A stretch of DNA of 64,000 nt, taken from the NCBI GenBank assembly GCA_010094025.1, contig ML991799.1, forward strand, positions 273,265 through 337,264, given 5' to 3'. Position 1 is the first letter of the stretch; every line of letters starts with the position of its first letter. Below the pieces are notes generated by a model that saw only the letters and a program-made list of their open reading frames with translations, was not told the origin of the DNA and did not search any database. The translations under genes were made by a program, and so were the position numbers. The stretch is from Viridothelium virens. Taxonomy: Eukaryota; Ascomycota; Dothideomycetes; Trypetheliales; Trypetheliaceae. This document shows, in pieces, positions 7,084 to 59,873 of the stretch.

Positions 7084-8416
7084 TCACTTCTGCGCATCCT
7101 CCTTCATCCCCTTCTGAACCCAATGTCGGCCCTTCGCGGCTTGCTCCGCCATCTTGACCGGATCCTTCAGCAACTCTCTTGTCTTGTTTGGCTCTGGCAC
7201 ATTCATGCCTCTCTGGAACGCCTATGACACTCAATGTCAGCCTCATGACAGCGTACACCCAAGTCCCCATCTCTTCCTTTCTTCCCCTTGGGCATTCTCA
7301 TCGCCTAGGTAAGTGAAGTGGGAAGCTCTCCTAATTACTTACAGCTCTTTGCCCCAATCGCTCCTCCCACGCCTTCAAGGCGGGGAACTCCCCGATGTCT
7401 ACCCCCGCCCACGTCGCTAGCCCAACCCACCCCCATGCTGTGATATCGGCGATGGTGCACTTGTCCCCCACGAGAAACTGCCGCCCGCCGTCGCTGGAGA
7501 GCTGTGTCTCCATGACGCGATAGAGCCGCCGGGTCTCGTTCTGGTAACGGGCCTGGCCATAGGCGTGGTCCGAGAGGGGCTCGGGGGCGTAGCGCGTGAA
7601 GTGGTTCGCTTGGCCTTGCATGGGCCCGAGGCCTATATATAATCCAATTATTAGATGTTGAGGGGGGGTTCTTACGAGAGAAGAGAGGGGTAGGCGTCAC
7701 AGTCAAACGAGGAAAAACCCGTCGAGGAAAAACCCGTCGAGGGAACAATAACGAGGGTGTTAGTGGTGACACACCTGCGTTCTGGAAGAATACCCAGCTG
7801 ACCATGTCGTGCCACTCTCGTGTCCCGACGGGAAAACTAATCTTGTGCTCGGCATCGTAGTGCGTCGTCAAGTACAGCAGAATGCTGCCGCTCTCCCACA
7901 GATGCATTGGTGCTTGCTCCGCTGTGGCAGAGAATGGGGGGCGGTTGTCACTTAGAGCTGGAATGCGGCCGTTGGGATTCACGGCGAGGAACCAGTCGGA
8001 CTTCTGCTCGGTTTTGGTCATGTCGATTTTGATGGTTTTGTAAGGGAGACTGGTGGTAGGGAAGAGGCATCAAGTAAGCACGAGCGGCGGAATATAGGTT
8101 GGAAACTGGAGATGAAATAAAGTATGTGCATCAGGGTGTAAGATAAGAAATGTCGATGCCATCAACATGGCCGGGCTTTTGGCCTCCACAGGATTTGGGA
8201 TTCCCTCAGTAAAATTTATTCAAGGTTAAATAAAACGCTCAGTAGAGTATCGATGTAGAATCGATATTTCCTTATACGATTTTTTGACTTTGTACGGCCC
8301 GGGGATTCAAAGGAAAGCCTAGATACTCACCCGAGCTCCTCAAGAGCGATAGAGATTTTGATGCCATTGGGAGTTTGCGACGTGTAGAGGACAAGGTTAG
8401 GCTCTGTGGAAGCCAT
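7084..8416 (-). CDS. Glutathione S-transferase, Ure2-like
   Basis: Four exons in coding order: 8416-8331, 8049-7775, 7632-7343 and 7221-7084. The introns are 281, 142 and 121 bases, phases agree, and the product is about 262 residues. The N-terminal thioredoxin-like domain reads LVLYTSQTPNGIKISIALEE and then has the NPNGRIPAL turn and WESGSILLYL, the glutathione-site residues of the family. The all-helical C-terminal domain has GPMQGQANHF, TIADITAWGW and the basic tail of fungal Ure2-like enzymes. It should conjugate or reduce small electrophiles with glutathione in the cytosol. It lacks the long Asn-rich prion domain of yeast Ure2, so a nitrogen-regulatory role is not implied. Intron 2 contains a small tandem repeat. 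Confidence 0.9.
7708..7742. repeat. 15-base tandem repeat inside GST intron 2
   Basis: The unit cgaggaaaaacccgt occurs twice exactly, followed by the first five bases of a third copy. It lies inside the 142-base second intron of the glutathione transferase gene. Confidence 0.85.
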
Positions 8417-9439
8417 AATCTTAGTTTGAAGAGTCTAATGACAAGGAGTTAGAAGATTGGAAGATCGCGGAATCAGCGGACGAGATGATTGCCAGATCTG
8501 GGCTCAGAACGCCAAACAATGCAGATAGTTATGATAACTTTGAAACTCCGTACTTCGGACACGGAGAAAATCCACGCTGTTTCTGAAAGCGATGTTTACT
8601 GATGCGTTACTAATGAAGCCCTAGCGCAGCGGGGAAGATAAATCCTTCACGATAATGGGACATCCTACACGCTCGGCAAGTTCCGACTAAAACTGCGCAG
8701 CATTTCCCCTATCATGGAAAGAGAGTGCAAAACGGATGCAATGGTCGACGAGGAGAGAGGCTCGGTGACAGTGTAATATTAATTCAACAGTCTAAGAAGC
8801 CAGCGGTACTTTCAGAAACGTGAGTTGCATTATGTCTACATACATGTTCTGCATGTTAGATAAAACTAAGTGCAACGCTGCGTGGCGGGTCGACACGCAA
8901 GAGTAATGGAGTGGAAGAGTGACGCGTGCGATAGTAAGCTTGGGATGGGAAAGTAGTATTAGACCAAAGAGCTAAGGACTGGCGCAGAAAGCCAAATGAA
9001 GACCAGGCAGAGATTGTTGACAATTTGTAGCCATGCCGGTCGCTAGCGTGGACGAGAGCTGCGCGATGGGATGCGAGTGATGACGAGAGAAATGATCGAG
9101 TGTAAGTGGGATGTTTCCGGTAAGAGAGGCTTGTCGTGGGGTTGGGTGTCAAGACTGGGTGTTCAAGAAATAAAGACGCTGGAATGCAAAGCCCTGGTCG
9201 AAGGCTCCCGTCATACGTCGTGAATCTCATTACTATTCGGGGTTTCGAAAAGAAGGGTCGAAGTCCAGTAATTCTCGAAGTGTGGAAATAGGTTGAAGGA
9301 TGAAGCACTTTTGGGGATCGCAAGCCAAGGCGAAGCGTCTGAGCGAGACGAAGGCGATGGCGTGCAAGTGAAGGCATTCTACCTATTCGGTAGTGATAGA
9401 GAAGGAGAAGGGGTTGCCCGAAGATTGGATTTGTGCCGG
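8417..9439. other. Intergenic, GST promoter and KH-gene 3' end
   Basis: No credible gene is seen. The longest open frame (8856-9377, minus) has no recognisable motif and runs into the 3' side of the KH gene. Confidence 0.5.
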
Positions 9440-11599: not shown

Positions 11600-12889
11600 C
11601 TATTTTCCCGCTTCAAAAACGACCTTCTGAGCTTTCATTTTGTCAAATATGTCATACCCTTCTACTGCTTCCGACAATGGCATGATCTTGTCGGACATGA
11701 ACCTGCAAGGAATCAGGCTTTAACAACATCAGGCCATGATTATCGGCAATGCACTTACCCAAGCAGATGCTGCTTTTTCTCCAGCATCTTCAATGCTTGC
11801 GGGAATATCGATCGGACCGGGCAGCGACCCATCTGGACTCGAAGGTTCTTACCGTATGCTTGGTTCCCCGTCCACGGAATCTGCAGTAAAATTTTTGCAT
11901 CAGTCTCATGTTCTGATTTGTCAGATGTGCCGCTGAACTCCCAAGGCTCAGCTCTGCGAGAGACTTTCAAACTCCAAGGTGTCTCAGGCTCACCTCTCCA
12001 TTGTGCACACCAACGCTACTGATAACACCCCAAGGCCTTAGCAGCTCAAAGCCCATCTTTAACGCCGGACTCAGACCGACAACTTCAATCACCACATCTG
12101 CACCTCTTCCATCAGTAAGTTCTTTTACCTAATAGTCAAGTGTAGTTAGCACAAATCATCTTCCAAGGACCATTGATAGTTCACCCTCTTATCCAACCCC
12201 TCCCGATCCTTTTGAAAATTCCATGGCTCTGCTCCTAAGCTCTTTGCCAATTCCAACCTGCTCTCCACACTATCCACGGCCAGTAAGTGCTTCGGCTTAT
12301 AATCCTCGGCATTGATGCACGCACACAACCCCACCGGTCCACACCCAATGAGCACCACCGTCAAGTCCCGAATCTGCTCTGGCGCAAAATTGCTGAATGC
12401 ATTACTCGCCGCAAAATATCCCGTCGGGAAGATATCTGCCATCAGCACCAACACGTTCTCCTTAATCTCCGGCGGGGCCTTCATCACCGTCGCATCCGCC
12501 AGTGGTACCCTCACATACTCGGCCTGCGCTCCATCCAATGCTGCGGTCCCGAACAACAGGCACTTCTCGCACCGCGAACTGTGTCCGTCGCGGCAGTAGA
12601 AGCACTCTCCACACGATGTCGTGAATGGCGACACGATGCGGTCGCCCTTCGCAACGCTCTTGACTGCGGATCCGGCCTCGACTACGCTGCCGGTGAACTC
12701 GTGGCCCATGATGAAGCCGGTTGGGGAGGGCTGGTGGCCGCGGAAGACGTGCAGCTCTGAGCCGCAGAGCGCTGTATATTCGACCTTGACGAGGATGTCC
12801 GTTGGGTCACGGATGGTGGGCACCGGGCGATCTTCGAGAGCGACGACGTGAGGAGATTTGAAGACGACGGCTTTCATGGTGTTCGACAT
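11600..12889 (-). CDS. Zinc-dependent alcohol dehydrogenase family protein
   Basis: Four exons, 12889-12185, 12128-11994, 11880-11759 and 11702-11600, give about 354 residues. The N-terminal GroES-like domain has a catalytic-zinc cysteine in YTALCGSELHVFRG, the histidine and glutamate in GHEFTGSV, and four cysteines of a structural zinc site at about residues 95-115 (CGECFYCRDGHSSRCEKC). The Rossmann domain has GCGPVG and an Asp after strand two (LAVDSVESRLELAK), which favours NAD over NADP. It should oxidise an alcohol or reduce an aldehyde in the cytosol. The sequence resembles the threonine/sorbitol and glutathione-independent formaldehyde dehydrogenase groups, and the substrate is unknown. 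I chose the ATG of MSNTMKAVVF. An in-frame ATG at 13015 would add 42 residues with no known domain. Confidence 0.88.
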
Positions 12890-15485
12890 CTTCGGGACAG
12901 GCTTTTTAGAAGTTGGTGACGCGCTTGCGAAGAAGGAAGTGTTTGATAGGCTTTCGTAGAAGAAATAGACGCTATCTTTCTTAGTTGCCCACTGGTGGAC
13001 TTCACCTGGAGTCAACCTGGATGGGAGGGAAGCCTACTTCTCGAAACTGCGAGAGAGTACACACTCGGCCTTGGACAAAAGCACGTTGAAGTCATCGCAG
13101 CCATGGCGCTGGGTATATGTAGCTGCGAATCTCTGGGACCGCGGCACCCATGTCCGAGGTTTGCAAGGACTGCGGGGTCAGGGATCAAGGTAAGGTAAGG
13201 TGCTATGCTTAGTAGGAAAGATACATACCTTACTCTACGTAAGTATGCGGGGCACTCGACTTTAACTTCCTGCCTTACGACCTTGGGAAGTGACCCTCAT
13301 TGGCTACTGGCCTGCCATTAATTGGAGATGTTGACAAAGTCTCAGACTAAACGGAACGTTTGCGGCGCAGCTTTGCTGCACAGTCTGCCCAAACAACAAA
13401 AGCAATTTGCATTTGACCACAAGTTATTCGGCTCAACCCAGGTCAATAAATACAATAACTGCAAAGCCACCCAGCAGCGCAAGCAGCGCAGAAGCCTGGC
13501 TCAGACAGCGCCCCATTGAAAGCCTAATATTTGGTGAAGATGCCTGGGTTTTCCCGCTGGACCGCATTCTATATTGCTTGTTGAGAGAAGAGTAATGTTC
13601 AAATCAGGCTATCTGGAGACATTCTTTGATGCTGAAATGGAGGCGAGCGGTCCAAGGATATGGGGTTTTGATACGCTGGCGGCTAATTTAGAGCGGGAAG
13701 CAGAACGGATTGCGTTTCGCGCATTCAGGAGCCTGTTGTTCATATTCTACCAATGCTCGAGGATGTATTGCCATTGACTTCAGAAATCCCGGCATGCTAG
13801 CAATCGAGGGAGTCTTACCAAATATTCTCGAGTTGACTTCTTGAGCTCGGAAATAAGAAAACCAGCCAGAGGCGGGAAAGGTAGGGTAATCTCGTGAACT
13901 CGCTTGATACTGACAGGCCGAGGTTCTGTTGGTATATGTATATGTATAGCGCTTGGATGAATCCACAAATTTGCTGAGATAAAGAGTGGACGCTCGCACT
14001 CTATCCTTCACGAGCTGACACGGGCTTGGGCTGACGACGAATGAGGCTGAATGTCGCAGATGTCTCATCTTGAGAAATATACCGCTCTACCAGTAAGACT
14101 TGTTTGAATAAGCGTGTTTCCCAGGCGTAAACGGCATACGGGGTATCCTATTGGCACATCCCTCTCTTAGAACTGTACCTCTTTGCAACATCGATTCCGC
14201 ATATCCACAAATTTTTTCCCAGATACTGTACCGCTCTTCGGAGTGATCCGGTCGTCACAAGGATGTCCTTTGTCATGCTGAGTCGGAGATCCACAGCTGC
14301 AATCTGCATTGCATCCGTATTGAGTCACCAGATGCCGGCCCTTCCGATCGGATCTCTGGGACCCATAGCCAAGCAGTGCGTGTGAGAGAGAGAAGAATCA
14401 GCAAGTTGCAAGGGTATAGCTGCATCCGTGGTGCCATCTTGCTCCATGTCTTCGGAAACAGGGCCAGAAGAAGTAGGATCGCCTGTATGAGAATACCATC
14501 CGTGGCTTTTATTAAGGCCAGCGCGCGGAAGAACTGCTGCTCTCGTTACAGCGCATGAGCGGAAGACTGCTATGAAGGGAAAAGGCAGTTCTTGTATTTT
14601 TTCTGCTGAACCTCATCAATATTCTTCGCTCATATCGGAGTGATGGTGTAGTCCGTCGTAGACTGCAGTGCACGGACGAGTTACTGAGACATCGATAAGT
14701 CTAGCGCCAGTGCGGCGTGGGTCCGGAGAAGGACCCCCCCCCCCCCCTCTTTTTTCAATCGCGGAGGTGTAAAAACTCCGCATTTTGACAAAATGGCCGA
14801 AAACTTTTTTCAGAATCTCGAGACAAAATTGATATCGATTGGTAGCGCGTGGCTCTAAGAGTTGACCTTCGTATTGCCAACATGATCGGTGTTGTGGAGT
14901 ATGAGCTAGACGGGAAGGGAGACGGATTGGGGGTGGATTTGTATGGAGACGACGGTTTACAGCAAAAATTGGGGGTCTGAGTTTTTGAAACATATTTACA
15001 CTTATGAAACAAAATGTCTCACTGAGTTCACCTTCGAGTTCTGAGTATAATCGAGAAGGCGGATGGGGAGTTGTGGGGGACGAAAGGTGGACGACAAGAA
15101 CGAAGAAGTGCCTATGGAAAGCCCCCGGGAACGACATTTTTGTCGAGAATATCTGACTTGAAATCCTACTTGGATAGTGTCAGAGAGATCTCACGGAACA
15201 TGACCGACATGTCTTCAGCCTAAGATGACACTGATATACCCCGTAGCGTAGAAAGGTTAGCATCGCCTTCGCCGTCTAACCCCAAAAAATATGTATAGCA
15301 AGTTGGCCGAACCAAGACTATCAAGAATCTCCTGCTCACTATCTCTATCGAATATTATTAGCCAAAGATTTACGTATGGTATATGTATGCATTGCAGGCC
15401 GGCATTCGTTCAATCTCTACCTAAGATCATCCACAGTCGTTCCGCATCTTCTCGCACATCATACTCCTGACCTCTCAACCAGTGA
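12890..15485. other. Intergenic, 2.6 kb
   Basis: Short open frames only. A run of 14 C is at 14,734-14,747. Degenerate TACCTTAC/GTAAGG words occur near 13,190-13,255. A 173-codon minus frame (14616-15137) crosses the C run and has no sensible composition. No gene is supported. Confidence 0.45.
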
Positions 15486-16932
15486 TCAAGTCATTCTCTC
15501 TGCCCTGCTCAGACACAAATCCACCGTCTCCCAAAACCGCGCTACATTCACCCCCCTTGGAATCCTCACTCCGTCCCTGTCACCCTCGACCTTGCGCGCC
15601 ACCGTCCTTCCAACTTGGCCCACCCCCTTCTTTCCCCCAGACCCTGTTACGTCCCCAATCGCATCATCTCTCACCACATCCACAGACCAACGTTCTCGTT
15701 CTCCTGTCTCTCGGCCGTCTCGGAACAGCGCCGGCGCAAAGACAGCAGCGACAGCTAGGGGATCGTGGAGCGGTGGGCCGGTAGTCATGCCGAAGACTTC
15801 GGCATAGGTGGTGGCGAAGAAGATGAGGATTTCATGGAAGAGGGGTCGAACGGAAGGACGGGTGATAGATGAGATGGAGGAAGCGGGTATGGAAGGCGGC
15901 GCTGTGGTGCCGTGGAGGAGTTTGGCGCGCACAGACTCGGTAGCAAAGACGAGATGAGTAATGTCGAGAGGGATGAGAGTGGTTTTCGCAGCAAGAGCCG
16001 GATTGGAGAAGAGGGAATGGGCGGCTTCGGGATCGCACTACAGTGGGTGCTTCGTTAGTCGTGGAATAGACTCAGCAGTAATAGAGGAGACAGGTAGGCC
16101 GCGTTGATGCTCAGAGGAGAAGGGGGATGCATACGAAGATGTTGAACTCGGCGTACGGCGTCCAGTTACCAAAACTGTTGCTACCGTAGTTCTTAGTTCC
16201 CAATTTCGCCTCGTTAAACCCGCCGCCGACGACACCACCCATGATGCTGAGACCGGCGATGTGTGATACCAGGTCAGGATGCAAGAGGAAGAGTATCGCA
16301 ACATTGGTGAGAGCTCCTGTGGCGACGAGCCAAGCGGATTGGGGCGGACTGGATCTTAGCGCGCTATACATCGCTTCGATAGCGGATGTATTGATTTGTG
16401 CAGGCATAATCGGATTCGGAAGGAGCGTGGTCCCATCAAGGCCGGAGCTGCCTGCAAAACTATGATTAGAAGGGACCTTGGAGGCTGATGGGTAGGCGAG
16501 CGAGATACCATGAATTGCAGCCGCATGCGCTGGAGCTCTACAAAAAGGCTTGGAAGCCCCAGAATAGACTGGTATATCTCGACGGCCTATAGCTTCAAGA
16601 ACAGCGAGTGTGTTGTAAGTCGTATTTTCGAGAGGAGCATTCCCGTGAACGGTGCTAATCCCCAGTAGCTTCAACGATGGGTGCATCGACGCCATCAGAA
16701 TAGCAAAAGAATCCTAGTGTCGTGGCTCTCAGCTTCCACATTTTGCTCTGACAAGTTCCGGAAGAGACTACATACATCATGTCCTATCACTGGATTAGTA
16801 TATAGCACAAACGGGGTCTTGAAGGTCCAAACCCGTATCGCAGTCAAGCCATAGATTAGTGGGTCGAAAACCAGCCTTCGAGTAAAACTCCCAAAGGGCG
16901 GAAGGATCCTCAGGTATTTCTTGTTTGTCCAT
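15486..16932 (-). CDS. Inosine-uridine nucleoside hydrolase
   Basis: Hydrolyses the N-glycosidic bond of ribonucleosides to base plus ribose, in purine and pyrimidine salvage. Four exons: 16932-16833, 16783-16776, 16713-16135 and 16037-15486, about 412 residues. The calcium-binding signature DCDTGHDD is at residues 30-37. It is assembled from three exons, the middle one only 8 bases long, which supplies the last two bases of the Gly codon plus His and Asp. Further family marks are the LLGISTVHGNAPLENT segment, VATGALTNVA, the SIMGGVV strand, and WTPYAEFNIFCDPEAA, which carries the conserved Asn and Asp near the active site. The C-terminal third is longer and less conserved than in bacterial enzymes, as in fungi. 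The coding strand is C-rich around 15,780-16,010 and then G-rich. Confidence 0.9.
16776..16783 (-). other. 8-base micro-exon of the nucleoside hydrolase gene
   Basis: The exon GACATGAT is flanked by a 49-base intron (16784-16832) and a 62-base intron (16714-16775), both GT-AG. It completes Gly34 and encodes His35 and Asp36 of the catalytic motif. Skipping it would break the frame and remove a metal-binding Asp. Confidence 0.85.
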
Positions 16933-17659: not shown

Positions 17660-19576
17660 ATGGCCTTGGGATGGCATTTCGTTGACCTCACTGATGAGCA
17701 GAAAGCGCAAAGGAGAATTACTCTTGATATCGCGGCGAATGTCGCCCAATACTCAGCTTTAATTCCTCTGTTGTGTCTTCAGATCTATTTTCTCTTTCTA
17801 GTATTAGGCAACAGACGCAGCTCCCAACATGGTCGTCTGACTGCTCCCTCTCTCTATCTGTATCCGCCAGCTGGAGATAGACTTCGATGGTCTAGTCGAA
17901 TACGAAGGGTTATAACGGATCTCGTATGGTGGGCTGGTACCCCAGTTGGAAGGGAATGGGGTACCACGGGTGAATGGCTTCTTGGGGCGATTTGGGGAGC
18001 ATGGCTTTTGCTACTCTCCACGGTGTATACTGGAAACGGTATGAGCTTCAGTCATTTCAGCCTTGCTGTTGTGTTTCCCTACCGAACTTTCCATCCATTA
18101 TCTCCTACCACGGACCATTGCTGAGTAGATCAATCTCAAGACTATTTCCACGTCACGAAGCGTTTCGGCATTGTCGCAGCCTCTCAACTACCGCTTCACT
18201 ACCTCCTGGCACTTAAGAGTCCATACTCGCCGCTGCAGTTGCTCACGCGACTATCCCACGAACAGTTGAACCGCGGTCACCAGGTGCTAGGAAGGACAAT
18301 CACCGTTTTCTTCTACGCTCATGGGGTCCTCTACCTCAATTTTTTCATCCAAAGCCACTCACTTCTTTCGCACCTCAAAGGTCGTGTAGTTCTCCTTGGG
18401 CTACTCGGCCTCATCTCCTTCACCCTCATCGGCACCACCTCTCTCAGCGTCCTCCGCACCCGTTCCTACCGCCTCTTCTACATCACCCACATCACCCTCG
18501 CCACGCTCCTCCTCCCCATCCTCTTCTTCCACGTCCACCACATCCGCCTCTACATCTGGGAATCCCTCCTCATCTGCCTCCTCCACTCCCTCTCCCGCTA
18601 CCTCTCCACCCGCACCCTCCGCGCCCGCATCTCCCTCCTCCCCAGCAGCAGCACTCCCCTCCTCAAAATCGACATCCCGCTCCCCCAACCACACTCAGCC
18701 ACCTGGCGTCCAGGCGACCACGTCTACCTCAGCCTCCCACCCCAACACGACCTCAACACCCCAGCGCACCTCCTCCACCGTATCCTCGCCAGCACGCGCT
18801 CCAACCCCTTCACCATCGCCTCCAACCCGCTTCGCGACGGCACCATCACGCTGATCGCGCGCGTGCGCGACGGCTCCACCAAGCGCCTCGCAGACGTCGC
18901 TGATTCGGGCTCTGACCGCGCAGTGAAGGTTCGAGTCGAGGGGCCCTATGGCGCGGTGCGGCATCTGCCTGACCTTAGGCTGTTCGACCGGGTGCTGTTG
19001 GTCGCGGGGGGTGTGGGCGGCACGTTTGCGGTGCCGATATTTCGGGGGCTGCGATCTGCGGGGCGGCTGGGCGCTGAGGCAGGGGAGAGTGGGGGGAAGG
19101 TGCGGTTGGTGTGGTTTGTGAGGGGGGAGGCGGATGCGGAGTGGGCGGTTCCGAAGGAGGAAGAGGAGAGGGAAGCGTGGAGGCGTGATATGGAGATTGT
19201 GGTGACGGGAGGGAGGACTGCTACGGGTGCAATGGTGAACGGGAAACGGGTTGTCGGAGGGAGAAAGCAGGATAATGTTGACTCTGGTGCCGAGGAAGAC
19301 ATTGAGCTCGCGGAACGAGAGGGTTTGTTGGATGAGGATTCGGTCGATGATGACAACGGAGGCGATGCACGGAAAAGTGGCAACATCCAAGCCGCAAGAG
19401 GTAGGGAACGTCTCGTAGAGTGTCTTGATGAACTATTTGCGGGAGGGAATGGAGAGGTCATGGCGGTCCTGGTCTGTGGACCACCAGCTATGGGCCGCTC
19501 CGTTCGCGCCCAGGTGCGGCAGCGAGCCAGACACGGTATGCAAGTTTTCTTTCATGCAGAAGAGTTTGGATTGTGA
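17660..19576 (+). CDS. Ferric reductase-like flavocytochrome (AIM14 type)
   Basis: Moves electrons from NAD(P)H through FAD and two haems across a membrane, to reduce iron or make superoxide. Two exons, 17660-18038 and 18141-19576, give about 604 residues. The N-terminal half has several membrane helices. The block HVTKRFGIVAASQLPLHYLL is characteristic of the AIM14 branch. Histidines spaced for paired haems follow, in SHEQLNRGHQVLGR with FFYAHG and in FYITHITLATLLLPILFFHVHH. The FAD-domain motif is NPFTIAS at about residue 365, then VEGPYG. The nucleotide-binding part has VAGGVGGTFAVPIFR. A 70-residue acidic insertion interrupts the C-terminal domain before the CGPPAM motif. The middle of the gene shows the strongest C-rich to G-rich switch in the window. 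It is convergent with cysteine dioxygenase. Confidence 0.87.
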
Positions 19577-35036: not shown

Positions 35037-36607
35037 TTTAAGGACGGCGATCTAACGCTGACGGCGCCCACCACCTCTGAAGATGTCATCACTGAACTGG
35101 ATCAAACTTCATAACCGCTGCCACTGGATTGAGTTTTCCGGACGGTTACGACCAGATGACTCACTAAGGAATGCTGAATTCCATTCGTCGAGCGACAACG
35201 TCTCCGCATAGAATTTCAATCTAATAGACTCAATCGCCTTGATAGTTGTTTTCACTGACCCGAACGCAGCTTTGAGGATATCCCCCTTCGCCGTCTAGGC
35301 TCTCTTTGGTCACTACATGAAATGCTACCGTCGTTGGATGACGCGGCGCAATCTTCAGTTCAGTCGGCCTCGCTTCATTTCACACGTTGCGTATCACTAT
35401 CACCTTTCTCGGTTCTGATATCTCCTTGTTCAAGCCCCTGCATTCTCTCTTGAATGCAGTTTGGAGGAACACTGTTGCTGGGAACCCGGCTGTCTTCAAC
35501 AGCTTCGATGACATCGCTGCTGAGCTGGATCTGTCCAATGATCAACTCATTCTGATAGGGATATCTTGACCGGCGTCCATCCCGACCGATACATCTGCGA
35601 GGGCACTTCTTCGATATATTGGACTTGAAAGATGCTCTAACAATTGGGGCAAACCTCATCTGGTACGAATCTTCCTGGGGTGCCCCCAACGATATTTTGC
35701 GCCAGCCATCGAATCCATCTTGATGGTGTAGGTTGACTACGGTTCCGCTTCATCCTAGTCCAATCTCTGAAACTTGGCTGAGTCTACGGGCCGATTCGTG
35801 GTTCGGGTGACAACCAGCTCGCAAACTGTGATATCACCCGCATCAATGGCAAGCACCCCAGTGACTTTCTCACCGAGAGCTTGTTTTGACGCGCCGGTGG
35901 AGCTTCCGTCTTCCCCGAACCGAAAACGCTACCGTCTTCAATCCTGATGACAACCACTTCGCCATCTGTGACATCACCTGCGTCAACGACGTTGACCTCA
36001 ATGACTTCGTTACCGAAAATCCGTTTTGACGCGCAACTGCATGGTGAACTCAAGGCCACAGTCGTGAGGAACAGAATGTGCTTTGCTTGTTGACCAGCAA
36101 AAGAACTCCCTTGCTCACCTCGTACGCTGCTACTCTATCGAGCGAGCCCAGCAAGTTTGGCAGTAGACCAAAGTACTTGCTGGGAAATATCATCATGGAA
36201 GCCCTGCTTTTCTTGGTGCAAAGATAGGGCTTATTGCAGATTGGAGGAGATTCTCACGGCGAGCTCGTTTCTCATGGTTGTCAAGCTATCAAACTCGGTC
36301 CTTTCATGAACATTCTGGAGTGCACCTGTGAATGGAAGCAATCTTGGCATCGTGATGAGGAGTGCGGCGGTCATTGCTCGCTGTTCTTCCCAAAGTTGAT
36401 TGATATATTCCGTAGATCGTCTATCATCGAATCAATGGCCTTGCAAATATCTCGCGATATCTGTGCGGTCCTCTAAGGAATTCTGTCACTTGAGTATATG
36501 TGCCAATACTCTTTGGGAAGTATCTCAAAGTATTGCAACTCTTATAAGCATCAGTCTCAAGGCCCACCCATCGGCCAAGCTGTGATTCTTTCCTCTCAAA
36601 ATATGCT
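35037..36607. pseudogene. Decayed coding remnants between Med10 and ING
   Basis: No intact gene is present, but several short open stretches look protein-like. On the minus strand about 36,480-36,230 reads as a helical segment (ISRDICKAIDSMIDDLRNIS), continues only after a frameshift (ALLITMPRLLPFTGALQNVH), and is followed by a 47-codon piece around 36,060-36,200. Two copies about 90 bases long lie 140 bases apart (35806-35896 and 35946-36036), about two-thirds identical, and are similar in both their plus- and minus-strand translations. I do not recognise the family. It could be the relic of one or more lineage-specific genes, or chance. Confidence 0.35.
35806..36036. repeat. Diverged ~90-base direct repeat, 140-base offset
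   Basis: Copy 1 is 35806-35896 and copy 2 is 35946-36036. They align without gaps. Shared blocks include tgacaacca, atcacc and gttttgacgcgc. Confidence 0.6.
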
Positions 36608-39326
36608 TTAAGACCATTTCTTTCTTGATCCACCCGCATCTATCGACCTCCCCTTTCCAATCCCGTATTTCTTCTCGCACGCCGGACAGTACCACCGCCG
36701 TCCGCTCGGCTCCTCGGTCAAGCCTACGCATTCAAAATGGAACCATTCGATTTCGCACTATTAACGACTCGTATTAGCCTCGTCCCTCACCCTTGCCAGA
36801 TACCGCAAAAGACCAGGAAGAAGCTCCATGTCTCAAGCGAGAAGATTGACAGACGAAAGAACTTCAGAAAAGGGGTGAATATAGATAGAACGACACCCAA
36901 GTACTCACATGAGGATTATCACACGCCACCATCTCCCCAAAGCTCACCCGCTCACACAAACAATACTTCGCCTCATCAGGATCAATCGGTTCCTCCTCTT
37001 CCAGCTCTCCCACCTCCCCCATCCCCTCCTCTCCCCCTCCCCCAGCCCCAGGCCCAACCCCAACATTCTCCTTCCCCCCCACCTCACCCAACACCCCCAA
37101 CCCAAACCCCAATCCCACACCCATCCCCATCCCCATCCCCATCGCCCCACCCCTCCCACCCCTCCTTCCCCCTTTCGGCGCACTCCTCCTCTTCGCCGCA
37201 CTGACCTTCGCCCCCGCCCCCTCCCCACCCTTCGTCACCGGCCCCGGCGTCGGCCGCTTCCCCCTCCTCCTCCCGCCTCCTCCCACCGCCGCAGAGCCCG
37301 TCCCTTGCGCGTCGGTGGCAGCGGCAGAAGAAACCGGGTATGCGGATGTCGAGGGCAGGCTGGCGTTGCTGCTGCGGCGGAGGGTGGAGCGGCGGGAGGG
37401 CGGCTGCGGCTCGGCGCTCATGGCTTTGCTGGCGCGGTGGCGGGGGCGAGTGGTGGTTGCGGAGGCGGAGGCGGCGGCGGCGGTAGCGGCGGCGGTAGCG
37501 GCGGCGGTAGCGGTGCTGGTAGTGGCGGTAGCAGCGTTTGTATGGGTGGTAGTGGTGGTAGGGGAGCGGGCGGGGCCAATGGCGATGACGGTGCGCGGAG
37601 AGGGGGGGGCGTTGGCTATGGTTGGGGTGCGGGGGAGGTGGGCGAGGGAGTCGCGGCGGGGACGGGATTGCGCGGCTGTGGGTGGGACGGCGGGTTTGGC
37701 GTCTTTTTTGGAGGAGGCGGTGGTGTCGGTGTCGAGTTTGGGGAGGGAGGTAGAGGCGGGTTTTTTCGGCGAGGCGGCTGGTGGAGCGAGGGGGACTTGG
37801 GTGGTCGTGGTTGTGGTTGTGGTCTCTGGTGGCGGATAAGGAGCGATGGGAACAGGCCCGTTGATCTTAATGCGTTTGGTCCCTGTTGATTGCGTCTTGG
37901 TGGATGGTGCTGAAGAATCGGTTTGGGTCTCGGGCTTGGTGTCGGCGAGAGGGCTCTCCCTCTTTCGCTTCTTGAGAGGTCTTTCAGGAGCTGGTGCGGT
38001 AGTCTCCTCACCATCATCGGCAGTAGCATCAGCCGGCTTTGCAGGGAGAATTGCCCTCACAGCCTTGCCCAAGTCTGGAGCCTTTCCTGCGACATCATCT
38101 ATCCCTTGGGCTTCCCTAGCTGCCTGTTCTTTAGCTAGTGTTTCTTTCTTCAGTTTCTTCGCCTCATTTAATTTCATACCCCTATTACTTAACGTCATGT
38201 CCTGTGCTCCAATCGGAACGAAGCTGATTTCACCAGGCTGCAGGGGCTTACTAGGATCCATTGGTTCTTCGTCTAAGAATATCTCCCCAGTTGCTTCAGA
38301 ATGCGCTTTCGCCTTGTCATAGTTTTCTTTCCCTCGCCCCAAGTCAGCCAGCTCACGACGAACCATAGTATCGCTCGGAGTCCAGATGGCGTTTTTCTTC
38401 ATTCTTTTCCGTAGTTTCGCCATCTCGTATTCTGTGAGTCTATTCCATGGCATATACCTACTTCCTGGTCTCGCATCAGTCGGAGGGGGATCAAGTTTTG
38501 CAAGGGCGTTGCTGGTGGAGATGCCCGCAACTTGGCTATGCACATTTGTACCCATAACCCCCGGGGGTCGTTGCCTGGCTAGTGCCGCTAGCTTGAGCTT
38601 GTGTTTAGGGGGCTTCGGAACTTTGACGCGTCCCGGCTTCCCTCCGCGCTGTGATTGTGTCGGCTCATCGAAACTCCCTGATCTGATATCGTTTGGTGAA
38701 GCTGGAGGCTCGGATTCATATTCTGAGGCCGTACTCGGAGGCGGAGAATCTGGATTTGGTGGAGGTAAAACCTCTCCAGGAACTGTCACCTTGCGACTTC
38801 TCTTTAGCTGTCCAGCTGATGCGCCAGTACGGGAAGCGCCCAGATGCAATGTAATGCGCGTACGGTCCGCGTCTTGTTTCCTAGCGCGACTTATTTGAGG
38901 GGATGGTACTGGAACTGGAGTTGGATCGCGCGATGGTGGCCTTGGAAGCGCCTCAAGCTTTTTCTTAATGCTGACCAAACGGTTACAATGCCGATCAGCA
39001 ACGTCGTAGATTCTCGAGGCTTCGGCAAAAGTTGCTTCACGAGACCGAATGGCACGATCGAGGGCTTGTGAGATTTGCTTGCGAAGTTCCGGCGGCGATG
39101 GGCGGTCGTCTCTGGGGAGGGATGGCAGAGCGCCATATGATTTGGTCAGATCGTGAATTTCGGAGGTTGAGTCTAGATATGTGGCGTCGAGCTTGCCAAT
39201 TAAGGTGAGAGACCTGAACAGGTCGGAGGGAAAGAACTCGGTGTAGTCGATGAAGTCTGAAACCGTTGCGGCAGCGTCAGGATCCGGTGGAACTTGCTGT
39301 GGCATATCTTGAAGAGCCTCCGCCAT
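36608..39326 (-). CDS. ING-family PHD-finger protein (Pho23/Yng-like)
   Basis: Chromatin protein of histone acetyltransferase or deacetylase complexes that reads H3 trimethyl-Lys4. Two exons, 39326-36909 and 36757-36608, give about 855 residues. The N-terminal ING helical domain has [36 protein letters not shown] and a long helix up to about residue 130. A linker of over 600 residues follows, rich in Pro/Ser/Thr, with an uninterrupted Thr tract and Ala/Thr repeats near residue 600. The C-terminal PHD finger begins YCLC...VACDNPH and, after the intron, continues [14 protein letters not shown] and RWYCPAC, giving a complete Cys4-His-Cys3 set. The tail is basic. The length fits the large Pho23-like proteins of filamentous fungi better than Yng1 or Yng2. 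Which complex it joins is inference. Confidence 0.88.
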
Positions 39327-43979: not shown

Positions 43980-46147
43980 ATGGCGGATTCTCTTTCGCCG
44001 ACCCAAGCCCAAGCGCTTTTTGATATCTTGACCCATCATGAGACCTACCGCGAAATCCAGGCCTTTGAATATCCTGACGCCATCTCCACTTATGGCCCTC
44101 CTTTTCAGACTGATGATGCTACCGTCTCAACCTCTCCTCTCCTTCAAGGCCTCCTCTCTCGATTCGTCTTGACACTACCAGGGCTGAAGAATGTATCGTC
44201 GGGTTTCTGGGACTACAGATGCCTTGAGTTGCTCAAGGAGTTCGCGGTGGTGGAGTTAAGCCAAAGCTATGATCGTGGGATCTTGAGTCTACGGAAGACG
44301 CTGGCCACGGCATGCTCTGCCATCATTGAATTCCTTGGAAGAGGAGTCTTCGGTGGTCTTTCAAAACAGGAAGAGAAGCAAAAGCGAGATCGCTATGACG
44401 CTTCAAACCCCGAAGACAGCATTGATGCGTGGAATGACTTCTTGCAACGAATTGTTTACGATGACATGATTGATGAACTCTTCGATAAAGCAAAAGAAAC
44501 GGATAAACTAGAGGATCATTCATTGTTGGTACAGGCTGCGCATGAATATCTAGTCGTTAGGTATGAGATTTTCTAATGAGTCTACGACCGACTGCTGACG
44601 GAGAAGTCAGCCTAGCATCGTTCGCTCATTATATACTAGTCCTCAATCCTGAAGGTCAATCACTTCTGACGGTGGTCGAGAATATCCATAAACTGGTACC
44701 GTACACCATTATGAGATCAACACTGAGGGTTGGCAATGTCGCTACAATGATAAGTGGAATGATGAAATTACTTTTGGCCAAGATGAGTGTTGGTAGTCTC
44801 ACAAATTGGATCGGGTGGAGTGCTGGTGCTGACGAAGGGATGAATCTGCTGCAAACGTAAGTTCTGAAGTGTTTGGACTTGTCAACATTCAGAGCTCATG
44901 CTCACGTCGAAACAGTATCATCTCCCAAGTCATCAGCTGGGATGTAAAGGCCCTGAAAGCGAGAGCCACAAAACTTGAAAGATCCAAGGATGCACCGAGC
45001 AAAGAGCAGTTTGACGCCCTGAAGGAATACTTGTCAAGGAGTCGAGAAGAGCGCGAACAGTCCCGAGAACAGAGCCGTAAGTCTTGCGTTGTGCTCTTTT
45101 TGTGCGTTTGGTAAATAACTAGCCATAGGGCAACAACCTCTACCTTTGGTCAGCCTTATCCTTGCCACTTCGACAGCTTCAGTAGAGCTATCCGAAGAGC
45201 AAGAGAAGATAGCCTTGGAATATGTCAACATTCAGTTCGCAATACACGACCGGGAAGCAATCGCAAATGTACTTTGCCATCACCAGCCAGATCACCTGAC
45301 CCAAGCTATCCGCGACTGTGTCTCCGCCTACGAGCCAGTGATTCGTCATATCCACAACGCCGCTGATCTGAGCGGCACCTTGAGCGATTTTGAGGCCTTT
45401 CTCACCGATCTGATCAAGCTCACTAAAGGCAACTCAAATTCTGATGCCTCTAAACAGGACGCTGAATCTCTTTCGCCAAGTGTAGAAGACTATACCAACC
45501 TGATTAAAAAGCACATCAAGTCCACGCACAAATTTCTCCACCAAGTCGCCAAGAACGGTCCGGAGATCACGAAATGGTACCACGACTACGTCCGCACTGC
45601 AGCCTCTCAATTCCACATCAGCGGTCCTGCCCCCACCCACAACACCCATCCCGCCGCCGGCACCATGACCCCCGTCTTGCAATCCCTCATCTCCAGCCTC
45701 TCGGACGCGGACCGCGCCGCCGTCCTCCCCGAACTCGACGCCCACGCCACCTACCTCGCAGCGCTCGCCTCCTCCTCCAACTCGCGCTTCTCGGCCGTCG
45801 TCGCCAACGACTCGGCGACCTCGTTCGGGCCCGGCACGTACCTCGCGCGCTGGCAGGCGCTGCTCGACGCGACGCCCATCACGCCGGTGACGAACAACGG
45901 GAAAGTCCGGTATGGCCGCGACCTCGAGGTCAAGGAGGCGAGTAAGGTGTATGAGGCGATGAAGGCGTCGGGCCAGGGGAAGGTGGGGAATGAGGAGAAG
46001 GAGAGGAGGATGGTGCAGAGGACGGATGGGGCGGTGAGGCGCGGGCAGCCGGAGATGCCGGGGGTGGGGAGGACGGTGGAGTTGTTGGGGGCGAAGTTTA
46101 GGGATGTGTTGGCGGGGATGGGGGAGAGGGAGGAGGATGTCGATTGA
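43980..46147 (+). CDS. PX-associated / DUF3818 domain protein (Lec1-like)
   Basis: Four exons, 43980-44560, 44611-44856, 44916-45076 and 45129-46147, with introns of 50-59 bases, give about 668 residues. The N-terminal region (LSPTQAQALFDILTHHETYR, then LKNVSSGFWDYRCLELLKEF) is the PX-associated helical domain. After it comes SFAHYILVLNPEGQSLLTVV and a charged coiled segment (LKEYLSRSREEREQSREQSR). The second half resembles DUF3818, with helices ending ITKWYHDYVRTAASQFHI. Yeast Lec1 (Ypr097w) has these domains around a PX domain. No PX domain is visible here, so lipid binding is not shown. A membrane-contact or lipid-transport role is inference. The last 180 codons switch from C-rich to G-rich codons. 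Confidence 0.75.
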
Positions 46148-47811
46148 TTAGAGTGTTTGAATGCAGATGTGGCTCGGAAGCGTCTTGTGGCTGACTTGGG
46201 CTCATGGCGTCAGGCGGGGAAGTTGGGGGGAGTTTCTTTCTGTGCTGCTTCGATGTGAGGTATTCAATTGAATGACTTGAGGTGCCTAAGCTACGATGGT
46301 AACATGTGATAGGGTTATCAAGGTCTCAGACAAGATCTTTCGGACTTGTGATCGGTGGGAGCAGGTCGCATAGGAAGGATTCCATGTCCCTTAAATCTCA
46401 AAGGCTAGGGAAGTAGCCGAAGTTTCTGCTGGGCACCTCCTGGGTAATATAAAGCAGCGATGGGACTGTTGTATCACACCGAGGTACTTTAGTAGCTCTT
46501 TTCTGGTTCTCTTGCTTTCCTTCCCTTCTAAATCATTTAGATCCTCAGTCAAAGCCAAGTTCAGGGGATTTTTACTGAGGGAGCCCTAAAAAATGTGGTA
46601 GTCCAGATGTTGGCCATTTGTTTTATCGTTGACCCTCTTACGCGTCTGATTGGTGATACGAGTTCTCCAGACCTAGCAATTTCTCCATATCTACATGCCG
46701 CTACGAGATTAGAATTGCTTGTCAATATTTTGTCTACGCATACATCCGACCGGTCATGTAAGAGTCTATCGAAGAATATACGCGGTCCAAGCGCAGTAGC
46801 TGAAGGACAGAATGACTTTGTGAGTGGAGCCAAGATGGGAAGTCAGATGCTCTTGTCAGAGATTTTTTGCTCATTAAGCCTCAGACTGGCACTCATTCTG
46901 ATTAGGATACTGGTGATACCAATCATGACTAGAATTATTCATATGAAGTGACGACCGATTAAGGTTAGGGCTGGTCGCCCATCCCATGCGCGGCTGTGCA
47001 ACTTCAGACAAAGGTCAACCGTCGAGTTAGAAGCAGGCAAAATTTGCTCCGAAGGGCGAAGGCGGCCTTGGTTGACATCTGTGATGCAGCAGCTGACAGG
47101 AAATCGACCGACCTATCCCATTGGCTTCAACTTCCGCTGTCTGTCTGCCTTTGCAGGCCGTCTCGGTAGCTGGATCGTTGTGAAACACCACTCGAGTTGC
47201 TGGCTTGCTCAGCCGCCCCCAATTGGTCTTTTCTGACCGGTGAAATAGTGTCCTCAGCCGCGACTATACCGGTTGGATAATCCTAAAATATCACTTTAAA
47301 ATCGATCTAACGCCGGGATTGGCTCGTTGAAGTGCAAAAGTCTATCCTCTCCGCCCTTTGCTCTCGTTAAGTATGGGGCCGACGTTCTCCGTCTGCGATA
47401 AGGCAAATAGGTCTCGCCCTTAGTGAGAACGCCGACCTGATTCTATTGGCTCAGGTCATTGCTAGGCCTTTGTTGGCCCCAAAATGGAGCAAGTTGATTC
47501 ATGGTCATCGTCTCGGCTAGATGTTGCCCGTGCCTCCATCAGGCGAGTTTTGATGGTCGAGATTGAAGATGTACAGTGTTGGCGGTACACCTGAAAACAA
47601 GCTCACCGGAGTGTCAAGATAGATAAACATAGAAGAAGCTTACAATTAGGTGCCATCTCTCATTCCTATATATTCTCCTTCTCAGGATTCATTACACCGG
47701 TCTCCCCTGCGTTGTACCCTCTCTGCATGCTCCTTTTTGTCCTCCTCATACCTTTCGTTACATTTCTTTTGTATTGGAGGCATTGGAGACTGTCAACAGC
47801 CAACAAACAAG
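46148..47811. other. Intergenic, 1.7 kb
   Basis: Upstream region of the LtrA-type gene. Only short open frames (118 codons at 46595-46951, no motif). No repeat or RNA gene is recognised. Confidence 0.45.
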
Positions 47812-50678: not shown

Positions 50679-53438
50679 TCAATTCGATGTCTTACTGAAC
50701 GTCAGGGTGGTTGTGCCGTTGCTTGGTAGGTTGACCAAATAGCCACCTTGCTGCATCGTCAATCCCGAAGTCGCCAGCGTCACGCTAGCACTTCCAAGCA
50801 CACTGCTAGTCTGCTCGAAGTTCATTATGGTATTTATCGCGTTGCTTGCCTGATCGACTTGTGCCTTCCCTACACTGACCGTTAGAGCACCAGTACTCGG
50901 CTCGTAAGTGAACTCTTGAACAGCCCCAGCACTAAATGTCACATACAGACCGAGCGGCGCGATGAAGATCCTTCTCCTCACCGCATCTCTTGGCTGTACT
51001 GTAACGTCTCCGTTGCCATTGGCATTCATATTTGACACGATATTCCCACCGAAACTCACCATTCCGAAGACTGGATGATCGACCAGATAAGTTCCAGCAC
51101 CCATTACCATCCCTGAGAAGTTCGGTCCGTAATCCCCGGAGTACGGATCCCACTCCAATAACTCCGGATAACTGTGCATGGCCAGACTTGTCGAGCCATC
51201 TTGTCGCACATTCGACAACGGACCCATATTCCCTCCAAACGCAACCCGCAAATCATACAGACTCTTCAATGTCCCTGGCTGCGGATTCGATCGATAACTC
51301 GCCAGCAGCGGAAGAGAATTGAGGCCGGATCCATAATGATGGATCTGTCGCTCAATCTGGGGGATCTTGCCGGCATACAGGAAATCCCAGTATCGGCGCG
51401 CGTTACCATTCCACGCCCAATGGGGTACCGTCGGCATGTAGCCCCGGATCGAGTTGAGCGACTTGTTTGCCGTGGTGGAGTCGTTGAAGTAGGTGCTCCA
51501 GAGGTAGACGCCCTCCTGGCCGGTCGAGTCCCAGGCCATCTCGCTGCCGAAGGGGTCGGTTTCGGAGGCCCAGACGCGTTGGCGGGCTCGCATGAGGGAC
51601 TCCATATTGGTAGCTTCGGCGGTGAGATTCTCGATGCGAAGGGAGTCGAGGAGATAGGACCAGACGGTTTCACCCATGAGCCCGTCATCGCCGTAACCGG
51701 TGTTGGGTGCGCCATTGGCGCTGGTACCAAATGTGTAAGCAACGGTGTTGTAGGATTGATTGAGGTACCAGAGGGGTGTTTGGAGTGTGAGTATGCCTGG
51801 AGTGGTACGCCCAGCGTGGTAGAGAGACCAGTATAGGGCACTAACGTGAACGTAGTCGTAGGCACGATCCGTGGCGTATGCCGCGGCTTCATTCCAAGCA
51901 CCGTTCCAATTGATGGATTTGTTATACTGATAGCCGGGAACGGCGCTGGGTTGATAGAAGAATAAGCTCTTCCGAACGGCATACTTCTGAGGTCCTGATG
52001 AGATTTGCAAGTAACCCCAAACAGTCTCATTGACCATTTGCTCAAGTTTGGCGACTTCTCCCGCGCTAGGATAGATGAATTGCTTCATGCCTGCAGCTAG
52101 AAAAGAACCTGCTCCGCCCTCATCACTAATACCGGCAATCCATGCGCGGTTGTCTTGAAGAACATAATTACCTACGGAGTAATCATAAGATATCACGGAT
52201 GGAGCTCGATGAAAAGGGTCGGAGGTGTTCGTGTACCACTGCTTTGTCGTCAAAAAGTTTCCTGCATTTTGCAAGGTATCTGGTCCCGTGTTGGTGATAT
52301 AGTAGTGAATGGCCTGTGTTCGACCAGACGCGTATGTTATATCAAGCCGAGTTCTTCCAAATGCCTCCTGTGAAGGGAGTACTTCGTATGCTTGCCACGC
52401 CCCACTCAAAGTTTCGTTCCTAGCACTGACCGATAATCCATTCTCTGGTGAAACTGTCATGGATTGTATAGCCTCCGAAGAATTTATGTAGAGACTACCA
52501 ACGATGTCGTGAGGTAAAACGTAACCGGGGATACCGACCGCTACAGGAACATCATTAGATGCGACGGCGTCCTCAATCTGATCTACTGAAGAAGTTGCTG
52601 AGAACCGAAGGGCAACGGATATCGATTCTCCGGGAGAAATCATGGCAGACGTCGGCGTATTCCATGGCGTTGTTGCATTCCATTCCTGCTCCGCATATGC
52701 CTTGGTGTAGATTTCGTAAGCATAGTTTCCCTCGTACGTCTGCTGTTGATAGTAGGGATTATTCCGCTCAGGCAAAAAGCGCCATGCCTCAAATTTTGTG
52801 AGATTTCCAAAGGGAGTGATGACCATATCTGGGCCTGTGCCAGTGAGCCGTGTAACCTGCACGTATCCAGCTCCAAGTCCAATGTATGGATCAAGGAGAA
52901 CGCAATCTTGCATGGTCTCATCCGCAGTCCGATTTATGAAAATATTGTTCATCTCAATAGCGAGACCAAGGGCACCGAGCTCGATCGCCGTATCAGCAAC
53001 ATTTGCGAGGGTAAAATTGAGGATTACATCTCCTTGATATTGAGTCCACAACCGCGTCACATGCAATTGGGAACTGACGTTGGGCCATAGGGAGTCCAGG
53101 TCAGACTCAAGGAGGCCAGTCGAATCTTGAGGCTCGGTGGACGTGATATTCACCCTGTTTGTCGCAGAGTCTGCTCCAATCCAGTCGTTTTGACCAGTAA
53201 GACGGTAACGGAAGGAAATGTCCCCTGTATGGGAGTTGCCATTTCCATTCCGAGTACTGAAGACATCGCTAGGAGAAAAGTCAAATGCCAGATCCGTGGT
53301 TGGTTTGAGTGATTCGAGTACGCCCGATCCTGCGGCGAATAGTCCTTGCCAGTTGGGGGTGGAAAATGGCGTCTGCGCAGCCGCAGCGCCGGCGAGGAAG
53401 AGGAATGACCAGTACATGGCGATTTTAAAATAGCTCAC
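50679..53438 (-). CDS. Large secreted protein, DUF5695-like (possible glycoside hydrolase)
   Basis: A single exon of 919 residues. The N-terminus is a signal peptide (MYWSFLFLAGAAAA, probable cleavage just before or after Gln22), and more than 15 N-glycosylation sites follow, so it is exported. The first third is beta-rich (FRYRLTGQNDWIG, NFTLANVADTAIELGALGLA). The middle resembles an (alpha/alpha) toroid of the six-hairpin glycosidase kind, with NWNGAWNEAAAYATDRAYDY, GYGDDGLMGETVWSYLLDSL and FGSEMAWDSTGQEGVYLWST. The C-terminus is again beta-rich. The combination matches fungal DUF5695 proteins, which are thought to act on polysaccharides, but no activity can be read off. An ATG 7 codons downstream would also give a signal peptide. 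The family name is from memory. Confidence 0.75.
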   Translation of the reverse strand: MSYFKIAMYWSFLFLAGAAAAQTPFSTPNWQGLFAAGSGVLESLKPTTDLAFDFSPSDVFSTRNGNGNSHTGDISFRYRLTGQNDWIGADSATNRVNITSTEPQDSTGLLESDLDSLWPNVSSQLHVTRLWTQYQGDVILNFTLANVADTAIELGALGLAIEMNNIFINRTADETMQDCVLLDPYIGLGAGYVQVTRLTGTGPDMVITPFGNLTKFEAWRFLPERNNPYYQQQTYEGNYAYEIYTKAYAEQEWNATTPWNTPTSAMISPGESISVALRFSATSSVDQIEDAVASNDVPVAVGIPGYVLPHDIVGSLYINSSEAIQSMTVSPENGLSVSARNETLSGAWQAYEVLPSQEAFGRTRLDITYASGRTQAIHYYITNTGPDTLQNAGNFLTTKQWYTNTSDPFHRAPSVISYDYSVGNYVLQDNRAWIAGISDEGGAGSFLAAGMKQFIYPSAGEVAKLEQMVNETVWGYLQISSGPQKYAVRKSLFFYQPSAVPGYQYNKSINWNGAWNEAAAYATDRAYDYVHVSALYWSLYHAGRTTPGILTLQTPLWYLNQSYNTVAYTFGTSANGAPNTGYGDDGLMGETVWSYLLDSLRIENLTAEATNMESLMRARQRVWASETDPFGSEMAWDSTGQEGVYLWSTYFNDSTTANKSLNSIRGYMPTVPHWAWNGNARRYWDFLYAGKIPQIERQIHHYGSGLNSLPLLASYRSNPQPGTLKSLYDLRVAFGGNMGPLSNVRQDGSTSLAMHSYPELLEWDPYSGDYGPNFSGMVMGAGTYLVDHPVFGMVSFGGNIVSNMNANGNGDVTVQPRDAVRRRIFIAPLGLYVTFSAGAVQEFTYEPSTGALTVSVGKAQVDQASNAINTIMNFEQTSSVLGSASVTLATSGLTMQQGGYLVNLPSNGTTTLTFSKTSN

Positions 53439-58600: not shown

Positions 58601-59873
58601 ATCGCTACAATCTGGGACTGGGACGCGATGGGAGATCACGATTGCGTCGGTAGGACATCGCTCAAACTCGATCCATCTCATTTCCGAGACTACTTGCCCC
58701 GGGAATATTGGCTAGACCTGGATACCCAGGGTCGATTGCTGCTAAGGGTGAGTATGGAGGGCGAGAGGGACGACATTCAGTTCTACTTTGGAAAAGCTTT
58801 CAGAACCCTGAAGCGTGCCGAGCGAGATATGACGAGGAAAATAACGGATAAGGTATGCATTCCTAGAACGAGAACTCAGGGATTGCTGACTCTATTTTAG
58901 TTATCGGCCTACATCAACCACTGTCTCTCAAAACGAGCCCTCAAAAGCTTGCTTAACAAACCGTTTACCGTATCAGCTGTGACAGGGTATTTCCAACGTA
59001 GTCGCGTTCAATCCATCCAGCAACAGGGACCGACCCAAGCTGAGGTCACAAATATGCTGAAACCGCTCTTTACTTATTTTGACGACAACTTTGCTATCAT
59101 GAAACAGACCTTGACAGAATCTGCAATGGTCACGGTCATGACGCGATTATGGAAGGAAGTCCTCGCTACAATAGAGTCGCTCGTTGTTCCTCCACTTTCT
59201 GACAAGCCCTCATCACAGCGGCAGCTTACCCAACAAGAGCTTGACATCGTCTTCAAATGGCTCGAGGTACTCAGGACCCCAATCCCTTTTCCATGCCGCC
59301 CGGCTGACCCATGTCATCCAGATGCTCTTTGACTTCTTCCACGCCGTCGACGAAGACGGCACCGCCAACGGCGTTCCCCTCGACATCCTCAAATCCCCCA
59401 AATACCACGAAATCGTCTCCATGAACTACTTCTACTTCCTCCCCACCGACGACCTGATCCGCGAGAGCGAACGCATCGCCGCCGTCTCCCTCCAAAAACG
59501 CCAGCAAGCCGCCGCGCAATCCAACCGGCTCTCCGCCCCCGCCTCCCTCCTCTCGACCCCGAGCGGCCACGCGTTTGGCGGCGGTGCAGGGCTCATGGGG
59601 CTTCCCAGCACAAAGAGAAGCAAGAGCATCATGCTGAGTCGGAACCTGGGCACCATGAGGAAGGCGAAGGAGGAGAAGCGGCGCGAGATGCAGGCGGAGC
59701 CGAGCGACGACATCATCTTGCGTATTCTGCGGATGCGGCCGGAGGCGGAGCGGTATCTGCGTGATCGCAGTCGGCAGAAGGAGAGGTTGGCGGCGGCGGC
59801 GGCGGCGGAGATGATTGTGAGGCAGAGCTTGTTGGCTGGAGCGGGCGGAAGAGGAAGGATTCCTGGACGCTGA
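55580..59873 (+). CDS. Munc13-homology (MHD) and C2 domain protein
   Basis: Fungal Munc13/UNC13-like protein, expected at the plasma membrane in vesicle tethering, exocytosis or endocytosis during tip growth. Fission yeast Ync13 is the nearest studied type. Four exons, 55580-58216, 58271-58852, 58901-59266 and 59322-59873, with introns of 48-55 bases, give about 1,378 residues. The N-terminal block YALRVAFLSYLLEPRAKRKE is typical of the group. MHD1 occupies roughly residues 600-850 (YELVSIRRVY-like KELVSIRRVYSDALPG, RWIKLTDTNM). A C2 domain follows at about 920-1030, with GLSDPYVVL and TIWDWDAMGDHD, so the calcium-binding aspartates appear present. MHD2 is in exons 3 and 4 (ELDIVFKWLEMLFDFFHAVD). 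The tail is basic and Ala-rich. Codons in the last exon become very GC-rich. Confidence 0.9.

Follow-up and report, generated by a model that had tools for sequence, protein, structure and literature searches.

The window analysed here is a 64,000-nucleotide stretch of the Viridothelium virens genome (contig ML991799.1; C29:273265-337264), in which a series of genes carry a GC-rich island that is C-rich on the left and G-rich on the right of a central point. Eight such switch points, and a ninth and milder one near 51,400, had been listed in an earlier note made from the letters of this DNA. When base composition is taken in 100-base bins, all eight listed points have C-rich sequence to the left and G-rich sequence to the right of a local GC maximum, and the pattern at the ninth locus is indeed mild. 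Islands were scored with a matched filter of two 300-base arms, the score being the skew of the weaker arm (500-base arms were used for the DUF5695 gene). The islands are:

6950..8140, minus strand: island in a GST-like gene, centre ~7,489, filter score 0.15
12000..12970, minus strand: mild island in an ADH gene (ADH_N, E = 5.4e-26), centre ~12,652, filter score 0.13
15410..16110, minus strand: island in a nucleoside hydrolase gene (IU_nuc_hydro, E = 2.4e-19), centre ~15,721, filter score 0.29
18400..19400, plus strand: island in a ferric reductase gene (Ferric_reduct, E = 1.3e-20), centre ~18,889, filter score 0.33
29080..29480, minus strand: weaker island in open reading frame (ORF) 29031-29534 ('PXA last exon' in the earlier note), centre ~29,296, filter score 0.14
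36600..37970, minus strand: island in an ING gene (ING, E = 2.3e-5), the strongest, centre ~37,304, filter score 0.40, GC up to 0.77
45600..46350, plus strand: island in a DUF3818 (PX-associated) gene (DUF3818, E = 1.8e-16), centre ~45,885, filter score 0.27
50780..51850, minus strand: mild island in a DUF5695 gene, centre ~51,309, filter score 0.12 (500-base arms)
59220..60020, plus strand: island in the ORF downstream of a MUN-domain ORF, centre ~59,560, filter score 0.22

Pfam upheld the gene names GST, ADH, nucleoside hydrolase, ferric reductase, ING and PX-associated (DUF3818), and found no match in the PXA-labelled ORF or in the ORF with the 59.6-kb island. The MUN domain behind the name Munc13-like is present only in ORF 55,550-58,246, and the island itself lies in the other ORF. 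The gene near 51,400, previously described as secreted, is identified by Pfam as DUF5695; a single 944-residue ORF (50682-53513, minus strand) spans nearly the entire model of this function-unknown family at 1138 bits. In the GST-like gene (ORF 7338-8069) the GST_N match covers residues 8-73 of 244 amino acids and the island centre falls near residue 193, where the reading frame is uncertain. Skew at fourfold-degenerate sites passes from -0.61 to +0.63 across the centre in the ADH gene, from -0.59 to +0.67 in the nucleoside hydrolase gene, from -0.45 to +0.60 in the DUF3818 gene and from -0.56 to +0.60 in the DUF5695 gene. The ferric reductase gene goes from -0.76 to +0.63, the skew having vanished in the final 230 bases of the ORF. 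The ING gene goes from -0.81 to +0.89, and its protein changes from Ala/Thr/Pro-rich to Gly/Glu-rich across the centre. Third positions of the ORF with the 59.6-kb island are C (.71) and then G (.60), and those of ORF 29031-29534 shift little. Window GC peaks at 6,226 (0.657) and 23,894 (0.628; over 400 bases) have no skew switch.

The scan covered 320,231 bases in 28 sequences, about 1% of the genome (30.72 Mb, 175 contigs). These were the window and 27 others (256 kb beyond the window), namely 25 10-kb stretches at hand-picked positions and two 3-kb search matches. Before counting, L001 was left out throughout on account of its overlap with the window, and L018 from most counts; L018 (C150:1-10000) has 21.5% GC, against about 50% elsewhere, and is a candidate for mitochondrial or AT-rich repeat DNA. 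L019 and L020 were excluded from ORF-based and stop-aligned analyses. At a filter score of at least 0.18, 15 switches run C-to-G and none G-to-C (5:0 in the window, 10:0 outside it; two-sided sign test by hand, p ~6e-5), with a mean GC of 0.638 at the 15 switches. The pattern is thus real and polar and extends beyond the window, as a point-centred feature. At a score of at least 0.15 there are 27 C-to-G and 6 G-to-C switches, and at 0.08 or above 85 and 67; the near-equality of the two orders at weak thresholds arises because weak switches must alternate, and strong switches do not share this balance. Peaks of at least 0.62 GC over 400 bases, picked blind to skew (n = 23), pass from negative to positive skew in 18 cases. 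Three are reversed and two show neither order. Scaling up from the 1% sample gives, as an extrapolation, about 1,400 strong islands genome-wide.

In 300 kb of E. coli K-12 (51% GC), taken as a control, there were no switches of either order at a score of at least 0.12, and at 0.10 or above 0 C-to-G and 2 G-to-C; five GC peaks included no C-to-G and one G-to-C case, and skew slope was unrelated to GC. Degenerate C-word/G-word patterns, calibrated on 280 kb, proved too sparse for telling the two orders apart.

The appearance of the switch in plus and minus genes alike had been taken to exclude gene-linked or transcription-coupled causes, with a direction following the gene strand named as one refuting outcome. 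A C-to-G switch, however, stays a C-to-G switch when it is reverse-complemented; its occurrence on both strands is therefore no argument against a gene-linked cause, and that refuting outcome could never appear.

Around the GC-only peaks, C on the left side rises from 0.25 to 0.43 and G falls to 0.16, with the mirror image on the right, all within about 500 bases, and A and T drop about equally. The outward-running strand has 0.41-0.44 G over the first 300 bases and is back at background by 600; the TA skew of this strand is -0.05 to -0.02 within 300 bases and 0 to +0.08 farther out. Pfam, run on 30 ORFs, assigned a family at E of at most 0.001 in 23, and 20 of these (7 plus, 13 minus) make up the island-gene set; GST was omitted since its centre lies outside the matched part, MUN since it belongs to the neighbouring ORF, and SPRY since its switch is below threshold. 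The coding strand is C-biased and then G-biased in 20 of 20 genes, a set picked for carrying islands (ADH and DUF5695 at just 0.13 and 0.12), so that this polarity is no independent test. At fourfold sites of these genes the 5' side (n = 1400) is C.62, G.15, A.09, T.14 and the 3' side (n = 1031) is G.58, C.15, A.15, T.12; the reference, taken from beyond 700 bases upstream within these genes (n = 1620), is C.25, G.18, A.27, T.29. In the 5' arm ln C/T changes by +1.63 and ln G/A by +0.85; in the 3' arm ln G/A changes by +1.77 and ln C/T by +0.38. Bootstrap intervals for the difference between transition ratios lie above zero in both arms.

The skew is confined in extent. Within island ORFs, the C-bias reaches its maximum 200-500 bases before the centre and is weak farther upstream, with a fourfold skew of -0.19 at 700-900 bases and -0.07 at 900-1500; at 500-700 bases downstream it is +0.02 (n = 94). 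In the eight genes with a centre more than 450 bases from the ORF end, the G excess beyond 450 bases is weaker, pooling to +0.19 (n = 142). Individual values are -0.27 for ferric reductase (n = 42), 0.00 for Spc7 (n = 23), +0.22 for DUF5695 (n = 30) and +0.33 each for ADH and Fungal_trans, from 3 and 4 sites; the M20 gene keeps its excess (+0.50, n = 16). As the skew fades upstream and, in the pooled data, downstream inside ORFs, each island seems to be organised around a point, reaching about 500 bases to either side, and has a large GC gain.

The islands are linked to genes. Of 27 strong islands, 25 lie inside ORFs, whose ends are open-frame stops and in some genes possibly stops inside introns. 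All eight island ORFs 1.5 kb or longer have the centre in the 3' third, at a mean distance from the end of 0.17 ORF lengths and at most 0.31 (permutation p = 1.5e-4); the 3' bias is not significant in the 17 shorter island ORFs (p = 0.11) and is weak among the 21 GC-only peaks that fall in ORFs (relative p = 0.09, absolute p = 0.017). Average skew crosses zero within the final 500 bases when 125 ORFs are aligned at the stop. Fourfold G stays at about 0.5 right up to the stop, and raw skew goes from +0.44 to +0.27 just past it. Both this drop and the 3' bias demonstrate an influence of gene structure. Genes termed 'non-island' were sorted by low filter score, which makes their comparison partly circular. 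Two C-to-G switches outside assigned ORFs, at window position 62880 (score 0.17, GC 0.52) and at L015:4053 (0.15), may be boundaries of adjacent genes rather than islands.

The effect reaches both synonymous and other sites. Codon positions 1 and 2 shift as the fourfold sites do in the 20 island genes. Intron candidates, found by a simple splice consensus and starting within 450 bases of the centre, have C above G in 6 of 7 cases on the C side (one likely spurious), and all four on the G side have G above C. Past the stop, at 200-300 bases from the centre, the skew is +0.52 (n = 563), compared with +0.58 in coding sites. Since the bias of each arm recurs at codon positions 1 and 2, in intron candidates and in 3' flanks as well as at fourfold sites, codon choice is no explanation, and the earlier note was right to set codon preference aside.

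The island hosts are ordinary conserved genes, including DOT1, UCH, PEX11, choline kinase, Spc7, Arf-like and DHHC genes, and the sample as a whole looks fungal in its genes, with Fungal_trans, Spc7 and HbrB domains among them. Judged from gene content, the source is likely to be a filamentous ascomycete, probably of the Pezizomycotina. Matches in the PDB narrow it no further than to a fungus: the best match of the DOT1 protein is an H3K79 methyltransferase chain, the mitochondrial S25 protein has a single match (a 37S S25 sequence, probably of Neurospora), the Rsa4 protein scores similarly against several chains, and the Spc7 protein has no match at 1e-10. A second switch inside the ING and HbrB genes (best p 0.005 and 0.002 across 73 and 91 positions) is not claimed. 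Nor is a motif at the centres, because the 5- to 7-mers over-represented in the 24 centres relative to 96 flank windows were ranked post hoc; one of them is CGAGC, found in 16 of the 24 centres with 3.0 expected. Paralogs with and without an island were represented within the sample by three weak protein pairs of 26-33% identity. Elsewhere, contig C93:58349-60009 holds a WD40 run with four units spaced exactly 126 bases apart; TGA or TAA stops occur within 3 of 5 listed units, and the array looks partly decayed.

The closest known system is the coding-strand skew, C at the 5' and G at the 3' end, described by McLean and Tirosh in 2011 for most of the fungi they examined (PMC3315797). As with the islands, C-bias lies upstream and G-bias toward the stop in many but not all genes, and fourfold sites, other codon positions, the 3' flank and amino acids shift together. 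As presented in the main text, that skew is an average gradient in which C-bias peaks near the promoter and a GC gain is not mentioned, whereas the islands are discrete, with a sharp switch, a radius of about 500 bases and a large GC gain, in a minority of genes. The explanations offered there are transcription-linked mutation or avoidance of C, and the words 'recombination' and 'gene conversion' are absent from the main text (PMC3315797). The islands are apparently a strong, little-described form of this known fungal skew, and what is new here is their discrete, point-centred nature, their radius of about 500 bp and their large GC gain. In searches of open-licence papers we noticed none on discrete intragenic C-to-G islands with GC gain. 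A second relative is the skew at recombination hotspots. Reversed skew was reportedly found at mouse hotspots by Smagulova in 2011. Hotspots mapped with Spo11 oligonucleotides in S. cerevisiae likewise have reversed GC skew around them (PMC8276760). There too the skew changes sign at the centre, the order of the signs not being given in the text consulted; the yeast data are averages over mapped hotspots, whereas the islands are single loci in ORFs, found from sequence alone. GC-biased conversion in gerbils resembles the islands in its local GC gain that alters amino acids, and differs in that 'GC skew' there denotes GC enrichment, strand polarity not being described in the text consulted (PMC6573468, PMC7403616). 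The sign change at the centre and the GC gain known from double-strand-break hotspots and GC-biased conversion are both present here.

The islands probably record strand-biased repair of DNA, possibly at sites of recombination. More specifically, we tentatively favour a point-centred, strand-asymmetric process, most likely GC-biased gene conversion at stable recombination-initiation sites in the 3' portions of genes. Gains in GC and in skew coincide, unlike under deamination, which removes C or G, and both transition ratios move toward GC, unequally, as GC-biased conversion with a strand preference would leave them. The idea of a break with biased conversion, raised in the earlier note, is still the single best account of GC gain, polarity and finite radius taken together; breaks, conversion and the identity of the favoured mismatch are inferred. 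A break at the centre followed by 5' resection would leave 3' tails that are the inward-running strands; if T:G mismatches in heteroduplex were corrected to C:G mainly where the T lay on the invading tail, C would build up left of the centre on that strand and right of the centre on its complement. In the long term C would become fixed on the strand running 5'-to-3' inward, and hence G on the outward strand, for about 500 bp on each side. The genome has one match to the Spo11-type TP6A_N domain and two to the UDG/TDG family, which permit the recombination reading and support it little. Hotspots in Zymoseptoria tritici lie in exons in 1435 of 2578 cases (PMC5844332).

A number of observations weigh against biased conversion. 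Compared at the same distance from the centre, sites beyond the stop have a weaker skew (+0.22 at 300-400 bases, n = 1402) than coding sites (+0.54), which a gene-blind process does not predict. The G excess lasts to the ORF end in the histidine kinase (+0.75, n = 15) and DOT1 (+0.71, n = 9) genes. Pyrimidines at fourfold sites rise from.54 to.76 in the C arm, and transition-only correction leaves such a purine/pyrimidine shift unexplained. In S. cerevisiae breaks are nearly excluded from coding sequence (PMC3020949), a location not shared by the strong islands, all but two of which are in ORFs. GC-biased conversion in Z. tritici is reported to be extremely weak or absent (PMC5844332).

The main rival, possible though on the whole doubtful, is a transcription-linked gene-end effect, in which mutation or repair regimes along transcription, or selection against late C, produce C-bias upstream and G-bias near the stop, the islands being the strongest cases. 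The location of strong islands in ORFs, the centres near the end of long ORFs and the fall in raw skew just after a fourfold G that holds to the stop would all follow. Our stop-aligned average of 125 ORFs also resembles the published curve, and the paper describes fourfold sites, amino acids and untranslated regions as affected, with G-skew strongest at the stop (PMC3315797). However, the C excess seems not to fill the 5' portion of the island ORFs (fourfold skew -0.07 at 900-1500 bases before the centre), and the G arm is gone before the ORF end in ferric reductase (-0.27) and Spc7 (0.00). The 3' bias, moreover, is not significant in shorter ORFs and weak for GC-only peaks. The published pattern, in the text consulted, is also without large local GC gain, GC skew correlating negatively with GC content (PMC3315797).

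Cytosine deamination on exposed single strands, at a bidirectional cryptic promoter with R-loops or at a replication origin at the centre, is improbable. Promoters and replication origins are known for C-to-G polarity (PMC3315797), but GC goes up rather than down. The skew ends within 500-700 bases, well short of fork travel, and neither the many-kb skew nor the leading-strand T excess of an origin is seen, the TA skew being at most +0.08. Fungal promoters are usually AT-rich, unlike the island centres, where GC is at its highest. Selection on codon choice or protein sequence is the least probable, for although strong islands are nearly all in coding ORFs and some proteins, such as ING, change composition across the centre, every codon position shifts alike, conserved enzymes included, and intron candidates and 3' flanks follow the arms.

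Under biased repair at a fixed point, one may go further and propose, as a rather unlikely extension, that each island is a long-lived intragenic recombination-initiation site, its exact centre written by strand-asymmetric mismatch correction, with the fungal 5'-C/3'-G average a blurred sum of islands; in that case one unannotated fungal genome would suffice for reading off a break map.

The fungal gene-end skew and the reversed skew at break hotspots may be one phenomenon. The signal is strong enough to be visible at single genes, so that each gene yields its own centre, radius and polarity. If the centres are not recombination sites, a strong strand-specific substitution process acts in conserved genes, and islands can alter proteins and mislead codon-usage and selection tests. 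If they are, sequence alone could predict hotspots even where crosses are impossible, and the polarity would reveal on which strand mismatches are corrected in vivo.

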